64,000 nt of DNA from Salipiger mangrovisoli (GTDB taxonomy: Bacteria; Pseudomonadota; Alphaproteobacteria; Rhodobacterales; Rhodobacteraceae): assembly GCF_015223355.1 (NCBI RefSeq), contig NZ_JADFFK010000010.1, positions 124,001-188,000 of the forward strand. Direction: 5' to 3'. Numbering within the stretch: position 1 is the stretch's first letter; each line of letters opens with the position of its first letter. The position numbers and the translations under genes were made by a program. The notes under the pieces were generated by a model. It worked only from the letters and a program-made list of their open reading frames with translations. It had not been told where the DNA came from and made no database searches. Positions 33,359 through 49,800 of the stretch are shown here, in pieces.

Positions 33359-34228
33359 ATGGACGGCGTCGCCTTGGAAAGAACTGTCGCGAAACAGAAA
33401 GAAAACGGGATGCTCACGGCGCGAAAGGACTTGGCGCATCAGCCCAGTCCGGCGGAATTGCGCAGCGTCTTCGGTGCCAATCTCCGGAAACTCGGAAGTC
33501 ACGCGGCATCAATCTCGGCCCTGTGCCGGGATCTTGGCATCAACAGGACTCAATTCAACAGGTATCTCGCGGGGGAGTCGTTCCCGAGGCCGGATGTGCT
33601 CCACCGCATCTGCAGCTTCTTCGAGGTCGATGCGCGCATCCTGCTCGAACCTGTGGAAGAGATACGTGAAACCCCGAGCAGCCTGCTCAGTCATCCCTTC
33701 ATCGCCGATTTCGTCGGCGCGGGGGTCCTGGGGCTGAGCGAGGACGACTTTCCCTCCGGCTTCTACCGCTTTTCCCGCGCGGCATTTTCCGAGGAATCGC
33801 GCTTCGTGGTCGGCGTGGTGCAGATCAGCCGCCGGGACGGGATGACCTTCCTGCGCGGCTTCGAGCCGAAAGAGGCGCTCACCATGTATGACCTGCCCAC
33901 CGATGCCGCCTCGCGCGAGTATCGCGGGCTGGTGCTGCAACAGGCCGAGGGGATCGCCGCGCTGGTCAGCCGCAAGGGCGCGGTGACCACCTCGTTCAAC
34001 TACCTGTCGAAGGCGGGCGGTCTCGCCAACCATTTCTGGGTCGGCTACGCGGTCCGGACCACACCCGAGAATCATTCTGGCCGTCGCGCGGCGCGTCTGG
34101 TCTACGAATATCTCGGCTTCGACACCCACAAGGTGCTCGCCGCGGCACGCGGCAGCGGCTACCGAACCGCGAAGGAACTCGTCCCCTTCCACCGCCAGCA
34201 ACTGCGGGTCGACGAAGAGTTCCGCTGA
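33359..34228 (+). CDS. XRE-family transcriptional regulator with C-terminal domain
   Basis: A 289-residue DNA-binding protein. Residues about 33-95 form a cro/C1-type helix-turn-helix (FGANLRKLGSHAASISALCR, then INRTQFNRYLAGESFPRP and LHRICSFFEVDARIL). The remaining 190 residues form a beta-rich domain of unknown function with GFYRFSRAAF and YRGLVLQQAEGIAALVSR. The ATG at 33359 has agggagg nine bases upstream; an internal ATG at 33410 is less well preceded. Ligand and targets are unknown; the divergent neighbour at 32835 is a candidate target. Confidence 0.82.
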   Translation: MDGVALERTVAKQKENGMLTARKDLAHQPSPAELRSVFGANLRKLGSHAASISALCRDLGINRTQFNRYLAGESFPRPDVLHRICSFFEVDARILLEPVEEIRETPSSLLSHPFIADFVGAGVLGLSEDDFPSGFYRFSRAAFSEESRFVVGVVQISRRDGMTFLRGFEPKEALTMYDLPTDAASREYRGLVLQQAEGIAALVSRKGAVTTSFNYLSKAGGLANHFWVGYAVRTTPENHSGRRAARLVYEYLGFDTHKVLAAARGSGYRTAKELVPFHRQQLRVDEEFR

Positions 34229-38956: not shown

Positions 38957-41050
38957 TCAGCTGCCCTGCAGCAGCGGCGTGATGCGGCGCACGGCGGCGC
39001 GGCGGTTTTCGCGCTCGTCGGCCTGGGTCTGCACGGCAAGGTCGCTCTCGCCGTAGCCCTGCAGCACCATGTTCTCGGGCGGCACATCGAAATATTCGCT
39101 GAGCGCCAGCGCCACCGATTCCGCGCGGCGGTCAGAGAGGGCGAGGTTGTAGCTCGCCGCACCCGTTGCGTCGGTGTGGCCCTCGATCAGGAAGACCTCG
39201 CCGGGGTTCTGCTCGATCATCCGCTTCATGGCGTTGCCAAGCGCCGCCAGTTCCTCGGCCTCGCCGGGACGGATCGCCGCCGAGTTGGTTTGGAAGGTCA
39301 CCGTGTCCACCGAGATCTCGGGCACCAGATGACGCACGCGGTCGATGTTGCGGATCTGATTGAGCGAGAAGGCACGGTTCACGCCCTGGGCTTCCTGTGC
39401 GGAGAGCGCGGCAGCAAGTTCCTCGCCATCCATCTCGCGGAAGTTCAGACGCTGGGTGTTGGCCTGCGGCAGCTCGCTGACCACCACCTGCTGGGCGCTC
39501 TGCGTGTCGTCGAAGAGCACCACGCGCTGGCCGTCGGGCAGGATGCGCGTGCGGCGCAGCACGCGGCCATCGGAGGTTTTCACCGTCTCGACGGTGTTGC
39601 CGTCGTCATAGGCGACAACCGTGCGGGTCGAGCCGTCGTTGTAGCGATAGGTCTTCACCTCGGACCCCGGCTGGCGCAGCAGCACGTCGTCGTTGCGCAG
39701 CACGCGGTACTGGCCATCCTGCTCGACCACCACGCGGTCGCCGGTGTTCTGCACCACCTGCGCGCCGTCGTCGAGGATCTGGCTCAGCGCGAAGGTGCCG
39801 AGACCGACCAGAGCCGCCTTCTCGAAGTTGCTCAGACCGTCCTCGTCGTCATCCTTCTTCGCCTTCTTGGCTTCGGCCGCAGCGGCAGCCTGTTGTTCTG
39901 CCGTGGCCTGCGCGCGCAGGTCGGTGGCAAAGTCCTCGTCCGAAGTGCGCACGTCGGCCTCGGTCAGGGTTTCCTCGACCAGCTCGGCATCGTCGGGGGT
40001 TTCTTCCGAAGATGCGGCAGCTGCGGCAGCGGCGGTCTGCTGCTGTTCTTCCTCGCGGGCAACGGCCTCGGCCTGCTGCTCGGCGCTCGGCGCCTCGGGC
40101 TCGGCGGCGGGTTCCGCGGCGGCCTCGGCTTCGGCTGCCGGAGTTTCGGCACCCGCGGTCGGTTCGGCATCCGCGGTCGCTTCGGACTCGGCGGTGGCTT
40201 CGGCCTCAGTCTGCGCCTCGGGGGTGACCTGTGCGGTACCCTCGCCCTCGGCGGCCTGCTGCGCTTCGAGCGCCTGCTTCAGCTCGTCCGTGCCTTCGGT
40301 CTCGCCAGCGGTTTCGGCCTGCATCTCCGGGGCGTCCGTCGGCTCGGGTGCCGCGGTGGGTTCGGCCGTGGTCTCGGCGGCCTGTTCCTCGGCCTGTTCC
40401 TCGGGCTGTGCCTCGGGCTCGGCACCGCGTTCCGCGGTGGCGTCTGCCGAAGCCTCGGGAGCCGCGGTATCGCCGGCCTGCTCCGCTTCGAGCTGCTGTT
40501 TCAGCTCATCCGCTGCAACGGCGTCACCTTCGGGTGCCGTCGCCTCGGCGTCTGCGGTGGCGGCGGGAGCCTCTGCCTCGGCCTTCGGCGCGGGGGCAGG
40601 CTCGGTTGCGGTCACCTCCGGTTGCGTCTCGACGGGCGCGGCCTCGCCGCCCTCGGCCTGGGCCTCGGCGTCCATCTGCGCCTCGGGCGCGGGTTCGGCG
40701 GGGGCAGCCTGCGCGGCCGCCTCTGCTGCCGGCTGCTCGGGCTGGACCGGCGCGGCGCTTTCGGCGGTTGCTTCGGGCGCTGCCTCGGCACCACCGGCCG
40801 CGCCGGTTTCAGCCTGCGCGTCGGCCTGGGCCTCGGCTTCGGCGGTCACACCGGTTTCTGCCGCGGATGCCTCCGGCTCGGCTGCGGTCGCCTGCTTGCC
40901 CTTCGCCTTCGGCGCCGCGTCGAGGCACGCCTTGGCGTCGGGGGTCTGCGCGCAGTCAGCCTTGTCCTGCTGGTTCTGAGCGGCAACGGGCATGGCGAGG
41001 CTGGCAGCCAGGGCGAGCATCGTCGTCGATTTCAGAAGACCTCTGGTCAT
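38957..41050 (-). CDS. OmpA-family outer membrane protein with long Ala/Glu-rich region
   Basis: A 697-residue exported protein. Signal peptide 1-24 (cleavage near PVAAQ); a Cys-containing segment; then about 300 residues (roughly 48-350) composed largely of Ala, Glu, Pro, Gln and Thr, including two related blocks DELKQQLEAEQAGD and DELKQALEAQQAAE; a hydrophobic stretch in EKAALVGLGTFALSQIL (about 405); a beta-rich middle; and a C-terminal OmpA peptidoglycan-binding domain (about 580-690) with VTFQTNSAAIRPGEAEEL and EGHTDATGAASYNLALSDRRA. The C-terminal Asp and Arg that bind diaminopimelate are present. The low-complexity part may span the periplasm. The DNA there is so biased that a 1238-codon antisense frame is open opposite. 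Confidence 0.88.
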   Translation of the reverse strand: MTRGLLKSTTMLALAASLAMPVAAQNQQDKADCAQTPDAKACLDAAPKAKGKQATAAEPEASAAETGVTAEAEAQADAQAETGAAGGAEAAPEATAESAAPVQPEQPAAEAAAQAAPAEPAPEAQMDAEAQAEGGEAAPVETQPEVTATEPAPAPKAEAEAPAATADAEATAPEGDAVAADELKQQLEAEQAGDTAAPEASADATAERGAEPEAQPEEQAEEQAAETTAEPTAAPEPTDAPEMQAETAGETEGTDELKQALEAQQAAEGEGTAQVTPEAQTEAEATAESEATADAEPTAGAETPAAEAEAAAEPAAEPEAPSAEQQAEAVAREEEQQQTAAAAAAASSEETPDDAELVEETLTEADVRTSDEDFATDLRAQATAEQQAAAAAEAKKAKKDDDEDGLSNFEKAALVGLGTFALSQILDDGAQVVQNTGDRVVVEQDGQYRVLRNDDVLLRQPGSEVKTYRYNDGSTRTVVAYDDGNTVETVKTSDGRVLRRTRILPDGQRVVLFDDTQSAQQVVVSELPQANTQRLNFREMDGEELAAALSAQEAQGVNRAFSLNQIRNIDRVRHLVPEISVDTVTFQTNSAAIRPGEAEELAALGNAMKRMIEQNPGEVFLIEGHTDATGAASYNLALSDRRAESVALALSEYFDVPPENMVLQGYGESDLAVQTQADERENRRAAVRRITPLLQGS

Positions 41051-42506: not shown

Positions 42507-43415
42507 TCAGGCGGGTTCGAGGGAGGCCCGCGCCTCGTCGAGCAGCCGCTTGGCCTCGCTGCCCTGGATCTTGGCGATGTCGTCCTGGTATTTCAGGATG
42601 GCGCCAAGCGTGTCGGAGATCACCTCGGGCGAAAGATCGATGACGTCGAGCGCCAGCAGGCACTTGGCCCAGTCGATGGTCTCGGCGACGCCGGGTTTCT
42701 TGAACAGATCCTCGGTGCGCAGGCGCTGCACGAAGGCGACGATCTGGCGCGACAGCGCCTCGGCCACCTCTGGCGCGCGGGCGTTCAGGATCTCGAGCTC
42801 GCGGGCGAAGTCGGGGTAATCGACCCAGTGGTAGAGGCAGCGGCGCTTCAGCGCGTCATGCACCTCGCGCGTGCGGTTCGAGGTGAGGATCACCGTCGGC
42901 GGCTCGGGGGCGCTGATCGTGCCGAGCTCGGGGATGGTGACCTGGAAATCGCTCAGCGCCTCGAGCAGGAAGGCCTCGAACGGCTCGTCGGTGCGGTCAA
43001 GCTCGTCGATCAGCAGGATCGGCGCGCCCGCCTCATCGGGGCGCATGGCCTGCAGAAGCGGGCGCTCGATCAGGAAATCGGGGCCGAAGAGATCGTGCCG
43101 GAGCCGCCCGCGGTCGGCCTCGCCGGCCGCCTCCGCGGCGCGGATGGCGATCATCTGCGCCGGGAAATTCCACTCGTAGACCGCCGAGCCCGCGTCGAGC
43201 CCCTCGTAGCATTGCAGGCGGATCAGCCGCCGGCCGGTGGCCAGCGCCAGCGCCTTGGCGATCTCGGTCTTGCCGACGCCCGCCTCGCCCTCGAGGAACA
43301 GCGGCCGGCCGAGCCGCAACGACAGAAACAGCACCGTGGCGAGCGGGCGGGGACAGACATAGCCGGTGCCCGCCAGCAGCGCCTGCACCGCGTCGATCGA
43401 GCTGGGTTCTTGCAT
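42507..43415 (-). CDS. MoxR/CoxD-family AAA+ ATPase
   Basis: A 302-residue AAA+ ATPase. Walker A is GEAGVGKTEIAKAL (about residue 43), Walker B ILLIDELDRTDE (about 133), sensor 1 VILTSNRTRE (about 174), and the arginine-bearing LKRRCLYHWVDYPD follows. It belongs with the VWA protein at 41165 as a MoxR-VWA pair, probably a metal-insertion or folding chaperone as for CoxD/CoxE. The start at 43415 follows an aggagga site; the frame is open for another 380 codons upstream, but that is antisense to a glycosyltransferase gene. Confidence 0.9.
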   Translation of the reverse strand: MQEPSSIDAVQALLAGTGYVCPRPLATVLFLSLRLGRPLFLEGEAGVGKTEIAKALALATGRRLIRLQCYEGLDAGSAVYEWNFPAQMIAIRAAEAAGEADRGRLRHDLFGPDFLIERPLLQAMRPDEAGAPILLIDELDRTDEPFEAFLLEALSDFQVTIPELGTISAPEPPTVILTSNRTREVHDALKRRCLYHWVDYPDFARELEILNARAPEVAEALSRQIVAFVQRLRTEDLFKKPGVAETIDWAKCLLALDVIDLSPEVISDTLGAILKYQDDIAKIQGSEAKRLLDEARASLEPA

Positions 43416-43574: not shown

Positions 43575-44636
43575 ATGAGTAAAGAAGACGGGACCTTGCC
43601 GCGCATCTGCGCGGTCACCTGCGTGAAGAACGAGGGCCCCTTCGTGGTGGAGTGGGTGGCCTACAACCGTGCTCTCGGCGTAAGCGACTTTCTTTTCTAC
43701 TCCAACGATTGCGACGATGGCACCGATGCGCTGCTCGACGCGCTGGCGCCCGCCGGTGTCGTGCATCTTGCCAACCCCGCCGCCGGCCGCAATTACCAGA
43801 TGGAGGCGCTGAAGGACGCCGCCCGTCAGGAGGTGGTGCGCCGCGCCGACTGGGTCTGGGTGGCCGATGTCGACGAGTTCCTCAACGTGCATGTCGGCGA
43901 TCACCGCCTGCCCGCCCTGATCGCCGCCTGCGGCGCACCGCAGGCCATCTCGGTCAGCTTCCAGTTCTTCGCCAACGGCGGCGTCTTGGGCTTCGAGGAT
44001 GCGCCGGTCATCGGCCAGTTCACCCGGACCCACAACCCGGATCTCTGGTGCGACCAGAGCGCCATCGAGGTGAAGACGCTGGTCCGCAGCGACTTCCCGC
44101 TGCAGTATTTCGGCGCGCACAGACCGTTCATCCGCAAGCGCCTGCCTGACGGTAAGCCGCCGCGCTGGACCGATGGCAGCGGGCGCCCGGTGCCCGCGTC
44201 CTTCCTTGCCGCCGACCGGCCGCGCCGGATGCGCAAATTCCCTGCCGCCGGAGCCCGGCGCCTTGCCACGCTCAACCATTATGCACTGCGCTCGCTCGAC
44301 AGCTATCTGGTCAAGACCGAGCGCGGCGACGTCAACCGCGAGGGGCGCGTCTTCGACGAGCGCTATTGGCAGGAACGCAACGACAGCGCCTGGGAAGAGC
44401 GCTCGATCCTGCGCATGCTGCCCGCGGTCCAGGCGGGCATCGCGGCGCTGCGCGCCCTGCCCGGTGTCGCCCGGCTGCACGAGCTGTCGGTGCAGGCGCA
44501 TCGTGCCAAGGTGGGAATGCTGCGTGCGCAGCCGCAGATCGCCGCCCGCGCCGCGCATCTCGCCGCGCTTCCGGCGCTGCCGCCCGGAGAGGCGGAACTC
44601 GTGACCCGGCTCGGACTGGCGGAGGGCGCGGCGTGA
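43575..44636 (+). CDS. Glycosyltransferase family 2-like protein, first of three paralogues
   Basis: A 353-residue GT-A-fold protein of the Glyco_tranf_2_4 type. N-terminal AVTCVKNEGPFVVEWVAYNR and FLFYSNDCDDGTD form the nucleotide-sugar site; Asp98-Val-Asp100-Glu-Phe is the metal-binding D-x-D motif. A C-terminal NHYALRSLDSYLVKTERG segment is shared with the domains at 45262 and 47578. There is no membrane segment, so it acts in the cytoplasm. Its stop overlaps the sulfotransferase GTG (GTGA). Acceptor and sugar are unknown; a cell-surface or exported polysaccharide is likely. Confidence 0.85.
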   Translation: MSKEDGTLPRICAVTCVKNEGPFVVEWVAYNRALGVSDFLFYSNDCDDGTDALLDALAPAGVVHLANPAAGRNYQMEALKDAARQEVVRRADWVWVADVDEFLNVHVGDHRLPALIAACGAPQAISVSFQFFANGGVLGFEDAPVIGQFTRTHNPDLWCDQSAIEVKTLVRSDFPLQYFGAHRPFIRKRLPDGKPPRWTDGSGRPVPASFLAADRPRRMRKFPAAGARRLATLNHYALRSLDSYLVKTERGDVNREGRVFDERYWQERNDSAWEERSILRMLPAVQAGIAALRALPGVARLHELSVQAHRAKVGMLRAQPQIAARAAHLAALPALPPGEAELVTRLGLAEGAA

Positions 44637-45265
44637 TCGTCGTCAACCTCGGCCTGCCGAAGAGCGGCACCACCACGCTTGGCCTTGCGCTGGAACGGGC
44701 CGGGCTCACGGTGGCCGACCACAGGCTGCGGCGGGGCAAGTGCCCCAATCCGGCGCTTGCCGGCAGCTATGTCGCGCGGCAGCTCTACGACGGCTATTTC
44801 CGCTCCGGCGATCCTCTGCAACGCCTCGGCGGGATCGACGCGCTTGCCGAGATCAGCGTTCTGAACACCCGGCTCAACCTCTGGCCGCAGACCGATTTCG
44901 GGCTGATCGAGGCGCTGCGGCAGCATCACCCCGAGTTGAAGTTCGTCGCCTCGATGCGTGACCCGCAGGCCATGGCGCAATCCATGCTGCGCTGGTCCGA
45001 CCTTGGCGCCAACCGGCTGCCGCGCCACGCGATCCCCGGCCTTCCGGCGGGCTACGGAGAGACCCGCCTGGAGCGCGCCCAGTGGATCGCCGCACATCAG
45101 GCATTCCTTCGCCGCATCTTCGCGGGCGATCCGCGCTTCCTGGCCTATGACATCGCGGACCCGCAGGCCCCGGCGCTGATCTCGGCGCATCTGGGCATTG
45201 CGCTGCCTTGGTGGGGCAAGGCGAACGAGAACACCGGCGGCCGCGGCAAGAGGGCACACGGGTGA
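44633..45265 (+). CDS. Sulfotransferase-like protein
   Basis: A 210-residue protein starting at a GTG that overlaps the preceding stop. VNLGLPKSGTTTLGLALERAG holds the intact PAPS 5'-phosphosulfate loop (PKSGTTTL), and VASMRDPQAMAQSMLRWS matches the 3'-phosphate-binding motif (R-D-P...S). It is short for the family, but both donor-site motifs are present, so transfer of sulfate from PAPS to a saccharide is a reasonable prediction. Its stop overlaps the next GTG in the same GTGA arrangement. Confidence 0.75.
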   Translation: MIVVNLGLPKSGTTTLGLALERAGLTVADHRLRRGKCPNPALAGSYVARQLYDGYFRSGDPLQRLGGIDALAEISVLNTRLNLWPQTDFGLIEALRQHHPELKFVASMRDPQAMAQSMLRWSDLGANRLPRHAIPGLPAGYGETRLERAQWIAAHQAFLRRIFAGDPRFLAYDIADPQAPALISAHLGIALPWWGKANENTGGRGKRAHG

Positions 45266-47574
45266 GAATTTTTGTCCATATCGGTCCCGAGGCCCGGACC
45301 AGCGCGCGTCTGCAGCAGGTGATGGACGCCAAGCGCCGGCAGATGGCCAAGCGCGGTGTGCTCTATGCCCGCAGCCCCGGCGCGCGCAACCACACGCGGC
45401 TCTTCATGGCGGTCAGCGATCCGCAGGCGGTGGATGCGCTGCGCTGGGGTCGCGGCTTTGCCGATCCTGCGCGCCAGGCCGCGTTGCGCGACGAGGTTGC
45501 GGCCCAGTTGCGCGGCGAGGTCGAGGCGGCCCGGCCGGAGGTGCTGATCCTCTCGGCACATCAGCTCGGCAGCGCACTGACCAGCCGCAGCGAGCTGACA
45601 CGGTTGCGCGCCCTGCTTGCCCCGCTGTCCGAAGACATCACCATCGTCGCCCATGTCGATGCCCCGGCCCGGATGCTCGCAGCCCAGTACGCGGCGCAGG
45701 TTCTTGAGGGCCGCAGGCGCGGGCTCGAGCTGGAGCTCGGCCTTGCCGGTGCCACGGACTGGTGGCAGGCGGCGCTCGACAGCCGGCCCGCGGCGGCGCC
45801 CGAGCGCGGGCTTTTCCCGGAGACGCAGGGAGCGGTTCACTGGCTCGATCTCGCGCGGCTCCAGCGCGGCTGGGAGGCCGCCTTCGGACCCGGAGCCGTG
45901 CGGCTGCGCAGCCTGGATCCGGCGACGTTTCATGGCGCCGGGGTGATCGACGAGATCCGCGCCGCCTTCGAGATCGCGCCGGCAATCGGCAAGGTGGCAC
46001 CGACAGAGCCGCCGCGCCCGCCTTCGGCGGCCTGGCTGAGCCGCTGCCGGCGGCTGAACGACGTGCTGCTGCGCTATCTCGCGGCCGAGCCCGCGCAGCA
46101 GATTCCACGCCCGCTCTGGCGCCGCTTGCTGGGCGAGATCAAGCTCGACGGCGCGCCGCTCGATCCCGGTGCGCTCGACGCCGTGAGCCGCCGCTTCGCC
46201 GCGGACATCGAGGGGCTGCTGGCGCAGCACCCCGGCCTGTCCCGCGACCACCTGCGCCCGGATCCCGCCACCACGGCCTGGCAGGAGGCCGATCCCGGCT
46301 TCGGCTTCCGCGCAACGCAATATCTCATGGCGTTCCGCTGGCGCATCGCCCAGGCCTCGAAGGAAGCCACATCCGACCCGAAGATCGCCACGCAATACAC
46401 TGATATATCGTCAAAACTCCCAGACTCCGCGCAGCGCAAGCTGGCCGCGTTGCAGGGCTCGCCCTGGGTGCCGCACAACCGTCTGGGCGGGCTGGACGAA
46501 ACCGCACCACAGGCGCCTTACAGCGCGACACCCGCGACAGCGACGCCGGACCGGGGCCAGCGGGTGATCCTCGGCTGCATGAAGAACGAAGCCCCCTATG
46601 TCGTCGAGTGGATCGCCTATCACCGGGTGATCGGTTTTGACGATTTTCTCATATATTCCAATGGCTGCGAGGATGGAACCGAGCTGATCCTCGGGCGGCT
46701 GGACCAGTTGGGCATCCTGCGGCACCGCGACAACAACGGCTGGAGCGGAAACTCGCCGCAGCAGCATGCGCTCGACGGCGCGCTCGACGAGCCAATGATC
46801 CGGGATGCGGCGTGGCTGCTGCATTCGGACGTGGATGAATTCGTCAACATCCGCTGCGGCAACGGCACGCTGGACGACCTCTTCGCCGCGGCGCCGGACG
46901 CCACGCATTTCGCCCTGACCTGGCGGCTCTTCGGCTCGGGCGGTATCCGCGAGTTGTCGGATGCCCCGGTGATCGCCCAGTTCAGCGACTGCGCACCGCG
47001 CTACTGCCCCAAGCCGCATACGAACTGGGGGTTCAAGACCCTGATGCGCGGCGTCGCCCCCTACGGGAAGCTGTCCTGCCACCGCCCGAACAAGCTACAT
47101 CAAGACACTGAAAACGTTATAAAATGGTCAAATGGATCAGGCCAGGACATGACCGGCGAAGTGCTTGGCAACGGCTGGCGCAACTCGCGCCGGTCGATCG
47201 GCTACGATCTCGTCCAGCTCAACCACTACGCGCTGCGATCGGCGGAAAGCTTTCTGATCAAGCGGCAGCGCGGGCGGGCGCTGCACGTGGATCGGCAGAT
47301 CGGGCTGAACTACTGGATCCGCATGGATTGGTCCGGTGCGCGTGACCTGACCATCCAGCGCAACCTGCCGCGGCTGCGGGCCGAGATGGCGCGGCTCTTG
47401 CGCGATCCCGAACTTGCCCGGCTGCACGCCGACGGCATGGCCTGGCACAGGGCCAGGGCCGCGGAACTGCGCGCCGATCGCGAATTCGGAAAGCTATTCC
47501 GAGAGGCGACGGCTTTGTCTCTCACCCCCGAGGAGCGCGTTGCCTGGGCGCTCTCGCTGGACATGGAGAGCTGA
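45262..47574 (+). CDS. Two-domain protein: degenerate sulfotransferase-like N-terminus fused to glycosyltransferase
   Basis: A 770-residue fusion starting at GTG 45262. The N-terminal part (1 to about 375) begins RIFVHIGPEARTSARLQQVM; related sulfotransferases read HIGxHKTGTTxLQ, so the PAPS-loop Lys and Gly are missing and the domain may be inactive. The C-terminal part (about 434-740) is a Glyco_tranf_2_4 domain (LGCMKNEAPYVVEWIAYHR, D-x-D at 523-525 in SDVDEFVNI, LNHYALRSAESFLIKRQRG). Several AT-rich islands (around 46395-46425, 46640-46665 and 47090-47145) contrast with the surrounding GC. Three bases separate it from the next gene. Confidence 0.78.
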   Translation: MRIFVHIGPEARTSARLQQVMDAKRRQMAKRGVLYARSPGARNHTRLFMAVSDPQAVDALRWGRGFADPARQAALRDEVAAQLRGEVEAARPEVLILSAHQLGSALTSRSELTRLRALLAPLSEDITIVAHVDAPARMLAAQYAAQVLEGRRRGLELELGLAGATDWWQAALDSRPAAAPERGLFPETQGAVHWLDLARLQRGWEAAFGPGAVRLRSLDPATFHGAGVIDEIRAAFEIAPAIGKVAPTEPPRPPSAAWLSRCRRLNDVLLRYLAAEPAQQIPRPLWRRLLGEIKLDGAPLDPGALDAVSRRFAADIEGLLAQHPGLSRDHLRPDPATTAWQEADPGFGFRATQYLMAFRWRIAQASKEATSDPKIATQYTDISSKLPDSAQRKLAALQGSPWVPHNRLGGLDETAPQAPYSATPATATPDRGQRVILGCMKNEAPYVVEWIAYHRVIGFDDFLIYSNGCEDGTELILGRLDQLGILRHRDNNGWSGNSPQQHALDGALDEPMIRDAAWLLHSDVDEFVNIRCGNGTLDDLFAAAPDATHFALTWRLFGSGGIRELSDAPVIAQFSDCAPRYCPKPHTNWGFKTLMRGVAPYGKLSCHRPNKLHQDTENVIKWSNGSGQDMTGEVLGNGWRNSRRSIGYDLVQLNHYALRSAESFLIKRQRGRALHVDRQIGLNYWIRMDWSGARDLTIQRNLPRLRAEMARLLRDPELARLHADGMAWHRARAAELRADREFGKLFREATALSLTPEERVAWALSLDMES

Positions 47575-47577
47575 CGC

Positions 47578-48636
47578 ATGCCGACTCCCCACATCACCGC
47601 CGTCATCTGCCTGCGCAACGAGGGCGCATTCCTGCTCGACTGGCTGGCGCATCACCTCGCCGCCGGGGTGAGCCACGTGGTGGCCCTCAGCAACGACTGC
47701 CAGGACGGCACCGATGCGCTGCTCGACCGGCTGGCCGAGGTAGCGCCCCTGACCCATCTCCGCAACGACGGCCCCTATGACAAGGGCGGCATCCAGTTCA
47801 CCGGGCTGAAGCTGGCGGACCGCGCCGAGGCGGTGCGCAGGGCGGATTGGCTGCTGGCGCTGGACGTGGATGAATTCGTCAATGTGCACGCGGGTGATCA
47901 CACCCTGCCCGCGCTCATCGCCGCGCTGCCCGAGGCGACGGCGATCACCCTCACCTGGCGGCTGTTCGGCAACGCCGGCGTGGTTGGCTACACCGACACC
48001 CCGGTGCCCGCGCTATTCACCCGCGCCGCGCCGGTGCGGATGCATTGGCCCTGGCGCTCGGCGATGTTCAAGACGCTCTACCGCAATGATGGCAGCTACG
48101 CCAAGCTTGGCGTCCACCGACCGCGCAGCCCCGATCCGGCCCGGCTGGCGCAGGCCCGCTGGTTCGATGGCGAGGGGCGGGAGCTCGACGGCCAGTTCCG
48201 CACCCGGCGGATCTTCTCGAACTACGGGCGGTCGAACTACGCGCTGGCACAGCTCAACCACTACCCGCTCGGAGCGATGGAGAGCTACGTGCTCAAGGCC
48301 GATCGCGGCCGCGCGGTTCACAGCGAGCAGCTGCTTGGACTGGACTATTGGGTCGAACGGAACTTCAACACCGACGAGGACCGCAGCATCGCGGCGCTGG
48401 CCAGGCCAAGCGGCGCGCGGCGCGCAGGCTTTGCCGCCGACCCTCAACTTGCCGCGTTGCACGACCGCGCGGTGCGCTGGCGCAAGGCGCGTTTCGCCGA
48501 GCTAATGGCGCAGGAGCCTTTCCGTGCGCTCATGGGGCGGCTGATGATGACCCCGCCCTCGCGCCCGCTTCCGCCCGAACTCGCCGGGCCGCTGATCGCC
48601 GCCGCCACCCGCGCCAGGCAGCGCGGCGAAGGTTAG
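47578..48636 (+). CDS. Glycosyltransferase family 2-like protein, third paralogue
   Basis: A 352-residue Glyco_tranf_2_4 protein: AVICLRNEGAFLLDWLAHH, ALSNDCQDGTDALLDRL, metal motif Asp96-Val-Asp98-Glu-Phe, and LNHYPLGAMESYVLKADRG. The stretch gacgtggatgaattcgtcaa is identical in DNA to the same place in the preceding gene (46828), which supports descent by duplication. Ends the four-gene run that begins at 43575. A short gg-rich hairpin (gggcaatttttcttgcc region, near 48663) follows. Confidence 0.85.
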   Translation: MPTPHITAVICLRNEGAFLLDWLAHHLAAGVSHVVALSNDCQDGTDALLDRLAEVAPLTHLRNDGPYDKGGIQFTGLKLADRAEAVRRADWLLALDVDEFVNVHAGDHTLPALIAALPEATAITLTWRLFGNAGVVGYTDTPVPALFTRAAPVRMHWPWRSAMFKTLYRNDGSYAKLGVHRPRSPDPARLAQARWFDGEGRELDGQFRTRRIFSNYGRSNYALAQLNHYPLGAMESYVLKADRGRAVHSEQLLGLDYWVERNFNTDEDRSIAALARPSGARRAGFAADPQLAALHDRAVRWRKARFAELMAQEPFRALMGRLMMTPPSRPLPPELAGPLIAAATRARQRGEG

Positions 48637-48798: not shown

Positions 48799-49800
48799 AT
48801 GGCGAGCGACAGGACGATGGCAGGTATCATGAAGGACAGCGCGGATCTGATCAGGCCCGAGAACGTCTTCGAGGACGAGCTCGACCTCACCGATGTTGAT
48901 CTCAGCATGCATTCCGGCCGCGCCTGGATCGACGCCATCTCCGAGGTTGGCGAGGCGCATGGCTTTGCCGAGCCGCTGGGCAAACGCCACCACGCGATCT
49001 TTGTCGAGGATGGCGACACGCTTCTCGTGACCTTCGAGTCGATGCCTGGGATCGCCGCCTACAGCCAAACCGCCACGCCGCTCGGCTGGGAGATGCAGGC
49101 GATCGAGGGGTGGTCCAATCTGTCGCTGATCTGCACCGCCGACACTTGGTTCCGCGACCGCGAGGTCGTCGATTTCTTCGACCAGTTGTTGGATGACGGC
49201 TTTTTCGACGAGTTCGAGAAGGTGATCTTCTACGGTGCCGGACCCTGCGGCTATGCCGCCGCCGCCTATTCGGTGACCGCGCCCGGCGCGCGCGTCGTCC
49301 TGCTCCAGCCGCAGGCCACGCTCGACCCGCGGGTGGCGGAATGGGACGACCGCTTCCCTGAAATGCGCCGTGTCGATTTCACCTCGCGCTTCGGCTACGC
49401 GCCGGACATGATCGACGCCGCGCAGGCCGCCTATGTGCTTTACGACCCTCAGGAGCGGATGGATGCCATGCATGCGGCGCTGTTCGAACGGCGCAACGTG
49501 ACGCGCTTCCGGCTGCCCTACATGGGCGATGCGCTGCAGGGCGACCTGCTCGAGATGGACCTCGTGCACCCGATCCTCGATGCCGCCGCCGATGACCGGC
49601 TCGACCGCGCCGAGATGGCACGGCTGCTGCGCGCGCGGCGCAGCCACGTGCCCTACCTGCGCCGCCTGCTGTCACGGCTCGACGCCGAGGAACGACCGCT
49701 GCTGGCCGAATGGCTCTGCACCAATGTCACCGCGCGGATGAACGCCCCGCGCTTCCGGCGCCGCCTGGAGGCGCTGCGGACCGAGGCCGAGGGCCAGTAA
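48799..49800 (+). CDS. Conserved protein of unknown function (often mislabelled PAPS reductase)
   Basis: A 333-residue cytoplasmic protein. It has VIFYGAGPCGYAAAAYSVTAPGARVVLLQ, a glycine-flanked turn at the place where alpha/beta hydrolases carry their nucleophile (G-A-G-x-C/S-G), preceded by VTFE and followed by PQATLDPRVAEWDDRF. I recall relatives in this clade annotated as phosphoadenosine phosphosulfate reductase, but no CGLHxG-type active site is present, so that label is not supported. Three possible ATG starts (48799, 48817, 48829) are not resolved. It follows the sulfotransferase/glycosyltransferase cluster by 162 bases in the same direction. Confidence 0.7.
   Translation: MASDRTMAGIMKDSADLIRPENVFEDELDLTDVDLSMHSGRAWIDAISEVGEAHGFAEPLGKRHHAIFVEDGDTLLVTFESMPGIAAYSQTATPLGWEMQAIEGWSNLSLICTADTWFRDREVVDFFDQLLDDGFFDEFEKVIFYGAGPCGYAAAAYSVTAPGARVVLLQPQATLDPRVAEWDDRFPEMRRVDFTSRFGYAPDMIDAAQAAYVLYDPQERMDAMHAALFERRNVTRFRLPYMGDALQGDLLEMDLVHPILDAAADDRLDRAEMARLLRARRSHVPYLRRLLSRLDAEERPLLAEWLCTNVTARMNAPRFRRRLEALRTEAEGQ

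Follow-up and report, generated by a model that had tools for sequence, protein, structure and literature searches.

Salipiger mangrovisoli carries, in the 64,000-nucleotide stretch analysed here (the window, from a draft genome of 6.35 Mb in 95 contigs), a cassette of four translationally coupled genes, designated GT1, ST, FUS and GT3 (43575-48636). We think it probable that this cassette is a cytoplasmic module, built from GT92-like glycosyltransferases and a sulfotransferase that uses 3'-phosphoadenosine 5'-phosphosulfate (PAPS), which adds a side chain to an acceptor made and exported elsewhere and sulfates it. We read it as a decorating module because it combines three coupled GT92-like enzymes with an intact PAPS sulfotransferase and an optional methyltransferase, with no assembly genes nearby. 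The features computed for the locus are its gene coupling, the predicted folds of its products, the active-site residues kept or lost, co-occurrence across genomes and loss as a block. A second sulfotransferase-fold domain, fused to one of the glycosyltransferases, is predicted to have kept its fold and lost its donor site.

Four coupled genes and their predicted enzymes

GT1 overlaps ST, and ST overlaps FUS, through the tetranucleotide GTGA, and GT3 starts three bases past the FUS stop codon (Table 1). An initial annotation of the window had given the same four genes and junctions, and on recheck its coordinates matched exactly. The conserved block extends further, as far as X333 (48799-49800). 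The initial annotation's account of the extent of the cluster was incomplete in this respect, as it lacked both X333 and a gene resembling FkbM methyltransferases that is present in about half of related loci.

The stand-alone sulfotransferase, ST, was modelled with a mean predicted local distance difference test score (pLDDT) of 89.1. Its top Foldseek matches are the PAPS sulfotransferases 8y9p and 9kf2 (SgdX2 and Cpz8; E about 1.3e-5), with structural Z-scores of 14.1 for 8y9p (root-mean-square deviation, rmsd, 3.3 over 173 aligned residues) and 13.7. A phosphosulfate-loop lysine (the 5' loop) together with an arginine and a serine that contact the 3'-phosphate are the motifs of a PAPS site. 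The corresponding residues of ST (K10, G12, T13, T14, R109 and S117) are present in 74 of 75 ST sequences, the remaining one ending at a contig edge. The loop reads GLPKSGTT, and the claim that the stand-alone enzyme has an intact PAPS loop thus holds beyond the window. Family assignment is less sharp: the window ST scores 22.1 bits against Sulfotransfer_4 (PF17784), below the curated cut-off of 22.8, and 46 of 47 ST relatives match this model at E<=0.01 (best 4.7e-10). Pfam also includes a Stf0 model; the only Pfam matches of the window ST at E<=1 are Sulfotransfer_4, Sulfotransfer_3 and Peptidase_U32. A search of the cassette proteins against NCBIfam gave no useful match.

All three glycosyltransferase domains score well above the curated cut-off of 27.5 bits for Glyco_tranf_2_4 (PF13704; 77.4 bits for GT1, 67.9 for FUS and 73.9 for GT3). 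GT1 also exceeds the 23-bit cut-off of GT92 (PF01697) with 31 bits, and all 52 FUS copies scanned match GT92 at E<=0.01 (best 4.2e-14). The FUS model (mean pLDDT 88.2, predicted template modelling score, pTM, 0.57) resolves into two domains. From about residue 429 onward it resembles the GT92 galactan synthase GalS1 (8d3t; Z 17.1, rmsd 3.1, 223 aligned; a second GalS1 match has Z 16.1), while other GT-A enzymes follow from about Z 10.7 downward. With the whole FUS model as the Foldseek query, GT-A enzymes rank at the top and the sulfotransferase 3rnl is found at E 3.2e-3. The GT92-type GT-A fold was read from the structure model of FUS, and GT1 and GT3 are called GT92-like from their sequences.

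DxD is the metal-binding motif of such glycosyltransferases. The aspartates of the DVDEF motif are kept in all sequences of GT1 (78/78), FUS (81/81, being 80 loci and the window) and GT3 (77/77); in FUS, D523, D525 and E526 are present in all 81, and histidines H607 and H655 are invariant. The initial annotation had noted that the three domains share D-x-D-E-F and LNHY-[AP]-L, and we find DVDEF in each, with LNHYAL in GT1 and FUS and LNHYPL in GT3. Profile comparison (hhalign) links the three domains at probability 100, and on these sequence comparisons the three glycosyltransferases are paralogs that resemble GT92. The paralogy proposed at the outset was therefore borne out for the glycosyltransferases, whereas the two sulfotransferase-type domains share a fold only, with no sequence relation detected between them (hhalign probability 1.1). 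A tree of 60 rows, drawn from 18 clusters and six plasmid glycosyltransferases (two long rows from a plasmid are flagged), places GT1, GT3 and the FUS glycosyltransferase domain each in one supported group, so that the triplication predates the split of the 18 sampled clusters.

The sulfotransferase-fold domain of FUS

Residues 1-335 of FUS have no Pfam match. In the structural comparison they align with 3rnl (Z 15.2, rmsd 3.9, 238 aligned) and with the heparan sulfate sulfotransferases NDST1 and 3-OST (Z 13.3-14.1). Unlike these enzymes, FUS no longer has a PAPS loop, nor the arginine and serine of the 3'-phosphate site. Where ST has GLPKSGTT, the window FUS reads HIGPEARTSARLQ. The loop pattern G..K[ST]G[STA][ST] occurs in 0/81 FUS sequences, and only one of the 81 has a lysine at the loop place. 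Position 133 is never arginine (aspartate in 69) and position 141 never serine (arginine in 62). The initial annotation had described one degenerate sulfotransferase domain fused to a glycosyltransferase, and the degeneracy extends to every one of the 81 copies. Taken with the modelled fold, these losses mark residues 1-335 as a predicted pseudo-sulfotransferase, with the fold kept and the PAPS-site residues gone.

The domain is nevertheless conserved. Within residues 1-340, 42 positions are identical in at least 79 of the 81 sequences, and mean identity to the window FUS is 51% over this region, 41% over the linker and 64% over the glycosyltransferase domain. The N-terminal domain is thus constrained by something other than PAPS. 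Such conservation, together with a complete fold (Z 15.2), is what would be expected if the domain still transferred sulfate by way of an unusual donor site, in which case FUS would both add a sugar and sulfate it. We hold this to be highly improbable given the near-complete loss of the loop lysine and the complete loss of the arginine and serine. Moreover, related domains were found in six of eight stretches fetched from other genomes (BLAST E 8e-6 to 1e-10), and these six stand-alone domains, when aligned, all keep the lysine and the arginine-serine pair that FUS lacks. An origin of the FUS domain as a duplicate of ST was also considered and is unsupported by the profile comparison given above.

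Some plasmids encode cousins of the FUS glycosyltransferase domain fused to another N-terminal region of about 380-400 amino acids (L068 13828-16101, L069 3029-5326 and L072 8807-11113). That region aligns with neither the FUS N-terminus nor ST, and the idea that it is a second dead glycosyltransferase found no support (hhalign probability about 1).

Table 1. Coordinates of the cassette genes, their domains and the bordering genes in the window
Feature	Position	Strand	Description
MoxR-type AAA ATPase gene	42507..43415	-	Divergent neighbour; syntenic marker; AAA_5 and AAA Pfam matches
GT1	43575..44636	+	353-amino-acid GT92-like / Glyco_tranf_2_4 glycosyltransferase; DVDEF at about 43866-43880
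ST	44633..45265	+	210-amino-acid stand-alone PAPS-type sulfotransferase; PAPS loop GLPKSGTT at about 44651-44674
FUS	45262..47574	+	770-amino-acid fusion of a predicted sulfotransferase-fold domain without PAPS site and a GT92-like glycosyltransferase domain
FUS residues 1-335	45262..46266	+	Predicted pseudo-sulfotransferase domain; former PAPS loop at about 45277-45315
FUS residues 429-770	46546..47571	+	Predicted GT-A domain; DVDEF at about 46828-46842
GT3	47578..48636	+	352-amino-acid Glyco_tranf_2_4 (GT92-like) glycosyltransferase; DVDEF at about 47863-47877
X333	48799..49800	+	333-amino-acid protein, no family match; conserved directly downstream; possible accessory

Conservation, co-occurrence and loss of the cassette

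Many roseobacter-type bacteria keep the cassette. Searching the genome collection with an alignment of FUS gave at least 80 loci, all of them selected for FUS, which they match over nearly its full length (the shortest match covers residues 1-726). The closest of the 80 loci fetched is from Alloyangia pacifica, with a FUS 79% identical to that of the window, same-genome records having possibly been excluded. Matches to GT1 were found in 77 of these loci, ST in 75, GT3 in 76, X333 in 73, moxR in 73 and vwa in 69, and several of the missed genes fall at contig ends. Where the genes were found, their order is the same in 80/80 loci. This constancy among loci selected for FUS, and the motifs conserved across them, place the cluster above chance. 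ST and FUS overlap in 70 of 74 pairs; with starts picked by script, GT1 and ST overlap in 40 of 72 pairs and lie within 30 bases of each other in the other 32.

In 44 of the 80 loci FUS and GT3 are separated by a methyltransferase-like gene; in two others, where GT3 was undetected, such a gene immediately follows FUS. One of its copies (L076) matches the FkbM Pfam model just at the cut-off (22.7 bits, E 1.2e-4) and has a sub-threshold TRM5 match too; the name also rests on similarity to an annotated FkbM gene in another locus (L067). In Salipiger marinus the FkbM-like gene (L089, 12302-12976) immediately follows FUS, and the locus has no GT3 match.

ST is missing from its place at five loci, and four of the five genomes have an ST elsewhere. 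In three genomes the moved ST is fused to a second sulfotransferase-like region, for a total of 522-546 amino acids (L153 556-2196, minus strand; L155 565-2133, minus strand; L157 1450-3051, plus strand); for the L153 protein Pfam detects the first domain only. The L157 copy is flanked by an amidase gene (Amidase_3, AMIN) and a transglycosylase/penicillin-binding protein gene (Transgly), and the surroundings in L153 and L155 are similar. Another moved ST (L156 1507-2181, minus strand) adjoins a GT61 gene (PF04577, 48.2 bits) and an FkbM-domain methyltransferase gene (PF05050, 29.2 bits).

The initial annotation had called for a survey of relatives and held that absence of co-occurrence would count against a dedicated system; what we found is strong co-occurrence of ST and FUS. 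In a set of 61 relatives, 21 genomes have ST, and the same 21 have a FUS in one or two pieces. For a set of 149 family genomes, with roughly one for each genus, our reading of the matches gives 46 with both genes, three with FUS only, one with ST only and 99 with neither, that is 49 read as carrying FUS and 47 as carrying ST (Fisher p 1.2e-33, kinship ignored). These searches score the best first-pass candidates only, so that misses are possible. Forty-five of the FUS genomes were matched in the N-terminal part, and four (G105, G127, G161 and G166) were counted from a high-scoring partial match to the glycosyltransferase part; excluding these four changes the counts to 42, 3, 5 and 99 (p 8.5e-28). 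The single genome with ST only (G095) has a divergent ST. In a class-wide draw of 240 genomes, ST was found in two, both from its own family.

Two genomes of the same genus have lost the four-gene block, or are in the course of losing it, and retain X333. In the first (G010, locus L172), both flanks keep their gene order, with moaA, ompA, vwa and moxR before the gap and X333, anmK and tyrS after it, and between moxR and X333 there are mere scraps of GT1 and GT3. In the second (G001, locus L171), GT1 is in three fragments, GT3 is a scrap and X333 is one continuous match, and no ST or FUS was found at the locus. Earlier searches had given no ST match in either genome and no FUS match in G010. 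Such remnants beside a retained X333 indicate that the four genes are dispensable and were lost together, and that X333 has some separate value.

The conservation of moxR (73/80) and vwa (69/80) beside the cassette, nearly matching that of its own genes, could also mean that the cassette is merely co-inherited with its neighbourhood and that its parts serve unrelated pathways. We consider this very improbable, as the four genes are translationally coupled, co-occur across genera even where ST has moved, and were jointly lost in the two same-genus genomes. MoxR and VWA themselves were set aside as functional partners because moxR is also present in six of seven searched genomes that lack ST. 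A phage or plasmid origin was likewise rejected: FUS has no match in the phage collection and ST none in plasmid records, and among the 30 of 120 plasmid records listed FUS is matched in its glycosyltransferase part only, with no plasmid record covering 80% of FUS.

Surroundings, known systems and a proposed role

X333 has no Pfam match better than E 0.014 in the 24 members searched, and no NCBIfam or PDB-sequence match better than 0.08. Its GAGPCGYAA stretch may resemble an alpha/beta-hydrolase elbow. Homologs of X333 with 27-37% identity lie beside GT92-like glycosyltransferases outside the cassette, on a Paracoccus plasmid, on a Phaeobacter plasmid and in genome G029 (L069 7577-8527, L070 12553-13434 and L174 8504-9316).

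Elsewhere in the window, 47 other genes were scanned with Pfam, and these encode sarcosine oxidase, methionine synthase, a TRAP transporter, acetolactate synthase, MoaA, OmpA, VWA/CoxE, AnmK, TyrRS, fatty-acid synthesis enzymes and others, some being unmatched. The initial annotation had reported no polymerase, flippase, priming transferase or polysaccharide export gene in the window, and we likewise find none of these families among the 47 (Pfam, E<=1e-6). With no assembly family present, we rejected a complete exopolysaccharide (EPS) or capsule locus for the window; the rest of the genome was not searched. The OmpA-family gene (38957-41050, minus strand) encodes, before its OmpA domain, a very long stretch of low complexity in which A, E and P abound, and is overlapped by a 1238-amino-acid open frame on the opposite strand. 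At 33596-34228 (plus strand) lies a 210-amino-acid predicted gene with no Pfam match at E<=1e-6.

Several described systems resemble parts of the cassette. GalS1, a GT92 beta-1,4-galactan synthase of Populus, shares with FUS the GT-A domain (Z 17.1) and carries, in the passages available of its description (PMC11062476), a non-catalytic glycan-binding module that precedes the GT92 domain. The GalS1 module is a CBM95, whereas the N-terminal module of FUS has a sulfotransferase fold, and the cassette glycosyltransferases differ from GalS1 in being bacterial, in coming in threes and in having no predicted membrane helix. For the eukaryotic DS-epi2, the description (PMC4920151, in part) has a 'sulfotransferase-like domain' joined to another carbohydrate enzyme.

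SgdX2 and Cpz8, both bacterial stand-alone PAPS sulfotransferases, are like ST in size and fold; unlike them, ST is encoded by a gene coupled to three glycosyltransferases, and identity in the alignments is 17-20%. Because these are the best fold matches of ST, and Cpz8 is assigned to caprazamycin synthesis by the title of its structure entry, the product of ST and the glycosyltransferases might instead be a small sulfated glycoside or glycolipid, with no polymer being decorated. We judge this quite unlikely, since the cassette has no lipid- or scaffold-making gene, three glycosyltransferases and a methyltransferase look like glycan decoration, and fold rank does not set the substrate.

The synechan xss cluster of Synechocystis also combines glycosyltransferases with two sulfotransferase genes and makes a sulfated exopolysaccharide, but it includes Wzx, Wzy, PCP and eight glycosyltransferases (PMC8205485, in the passages available). 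The cassette, unlike xss, has no assembly family among the other window genes scanned, and one of its sulfotransferase domains is predicted to be dead and is fused. LpsS, the lipopolysaccharide (LPS) sulfotransferase of Sinorhizobium meliloti, is alphaproteobacterial like ST and acts on a surface glycan; it is annotated as Stf0 family in the passages available (PMC12445080), whereas ST has Sulfotransfer_4 and Sulfotransfer_3 as its best Pfam matches and is coupled to glycosyltransferases. As far as these passages tell, the fused dead domain and the three-glycosyltransferase arrangement occur in neither the xss nor the LpsS system. The titles and abstract openings listed in searches of the open-licence literature yielded no description of this gene arrangement, and no known complete pathway matched the glycosyltransferase or sulfotransferase domains in our searches, in keeping with the initial annotation, which knew of no described system with this exact layout. 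We regard the arrangement as glycan modification by glycosyltransferases and a PAPS sulfotransferase, a known kind, in which one part is truly unusual.

A sulfated product in related bacteria is plausible. The EPS of Salipiger mucosus contains galactose and 0.9% sulfate by measurement, according to the passages available (PMC2953402), and would be linked to the cassette by inference; in the available text of the Salipiger mucosus genome paper the word 'sulfotransferase' is absent (PMC4148975). The synechan paper, in the part available, states that sulfated polysaccharide was unreported in bacteria other than cyanobacteria (PMC8205485).

The following scheme for the decorating module goes beyond the computed features in the activities, the sugar, the acceptor, the cellular place and the roles of the dead domain and X333. 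The three GT92-like enzymes (GT1, the FUS glycosyltransferase domain and GT3) would add sugars, plausibly galactose, to an existing acceptor, for which a lipid-linked repeat unit or the LPS core is a candidate. ST would then move sulfate from PAPS onto the newly added sugars. Where the FkbM-like methyltransferase is present, at about half of the loci, methylation is a probable further step. By analogy with the N-terminal carbohydrate-binding module of GalS1, the N-terminal domain of FUS would most likely be an acceptor-binding or scaffold module for the glycosyltransferase domain, or it may dock the active ST. Machinery whose genes lie elsewhere would complete the decorated glycan and export it. 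A cytoplasmic place is consistent with the hydropathy of the five cassette proteins, none of which has a 19-residue segment with a mean as high as 1.4; the usual limit for a membrane helix is about 1.6, and no such helix is expected. A PAPS source is at hand, as a kinase for adenosine 5'-phosphosulfate (APS) is encoded in 44 of 47 ST genomes, with two copies in that of the window.

These same soluble-looking proteins, the lack of a polymerase or priming family among the other window genes, and an OmpA-family gene with a long low-complexity region three genes away would also suit a protein acceptor, with the three glycosyltransferases and ST working in the cytoplasm to place a short sulfated O- or N-glycan on flagellin or a surface protein. 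We regard this as unlikely, given that no conserved substrate gene adjoins the cassette and ompA was detected in 22 of 80 loci, a count that poor repeat conservation and short flanks may lower.

Some findings weigh against decoration by a GT92-like, PAPS-dependent module. The window FUS and GT3 fall short of the 23-bit GT92 cut-off, at 18.2 and 13.1 bits. Three of the 49 FUS genomes (G076, G158 and G107) have no ST, and their loci hold GT1-FUS-GT3 with ST absent from its usual position; the genome of one further ST-less locus (L124) also has none elsewhere. FUS can thus occur where this ST is missing. APS kinase is found in 135 of the 149 family genomes and is thus non-discriminating; being nearly universal, it was dropped as a discriminating partner. 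The initial annotation's broader proposal, a dedicated system that builds and sulfates a glycan, gains from the folds, the PAPS-site residues, the co-occurrence and the synteny, while sulfation of a glycan by ST and the nature of the acceptor stay at the level of inference.

A further idea, to which we give somewhat less than even credence, is that the N-terminal domain of FUS is a non-catalytic glycan-reading module that recognises the acceptor or the sulfated product and so couples chain building to sulfation by ST, yielding a conserved sulfated surface glycan of roseobacters. The claim would span about a third of the genera sampled in this alphaproteobacterial family, which is large and includes many marine members. 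How a donor-binding fold may become a glycan- or partner-binding module could be examined in the conserved dead sulfotransferase domain, and the cassette-free sister genomes of the same genus provide natural controls. The genes for bacterial sulfated glycans are poorly known, and for roseobacters the cassette names specific candidate genes of sulfated surface chemistry.

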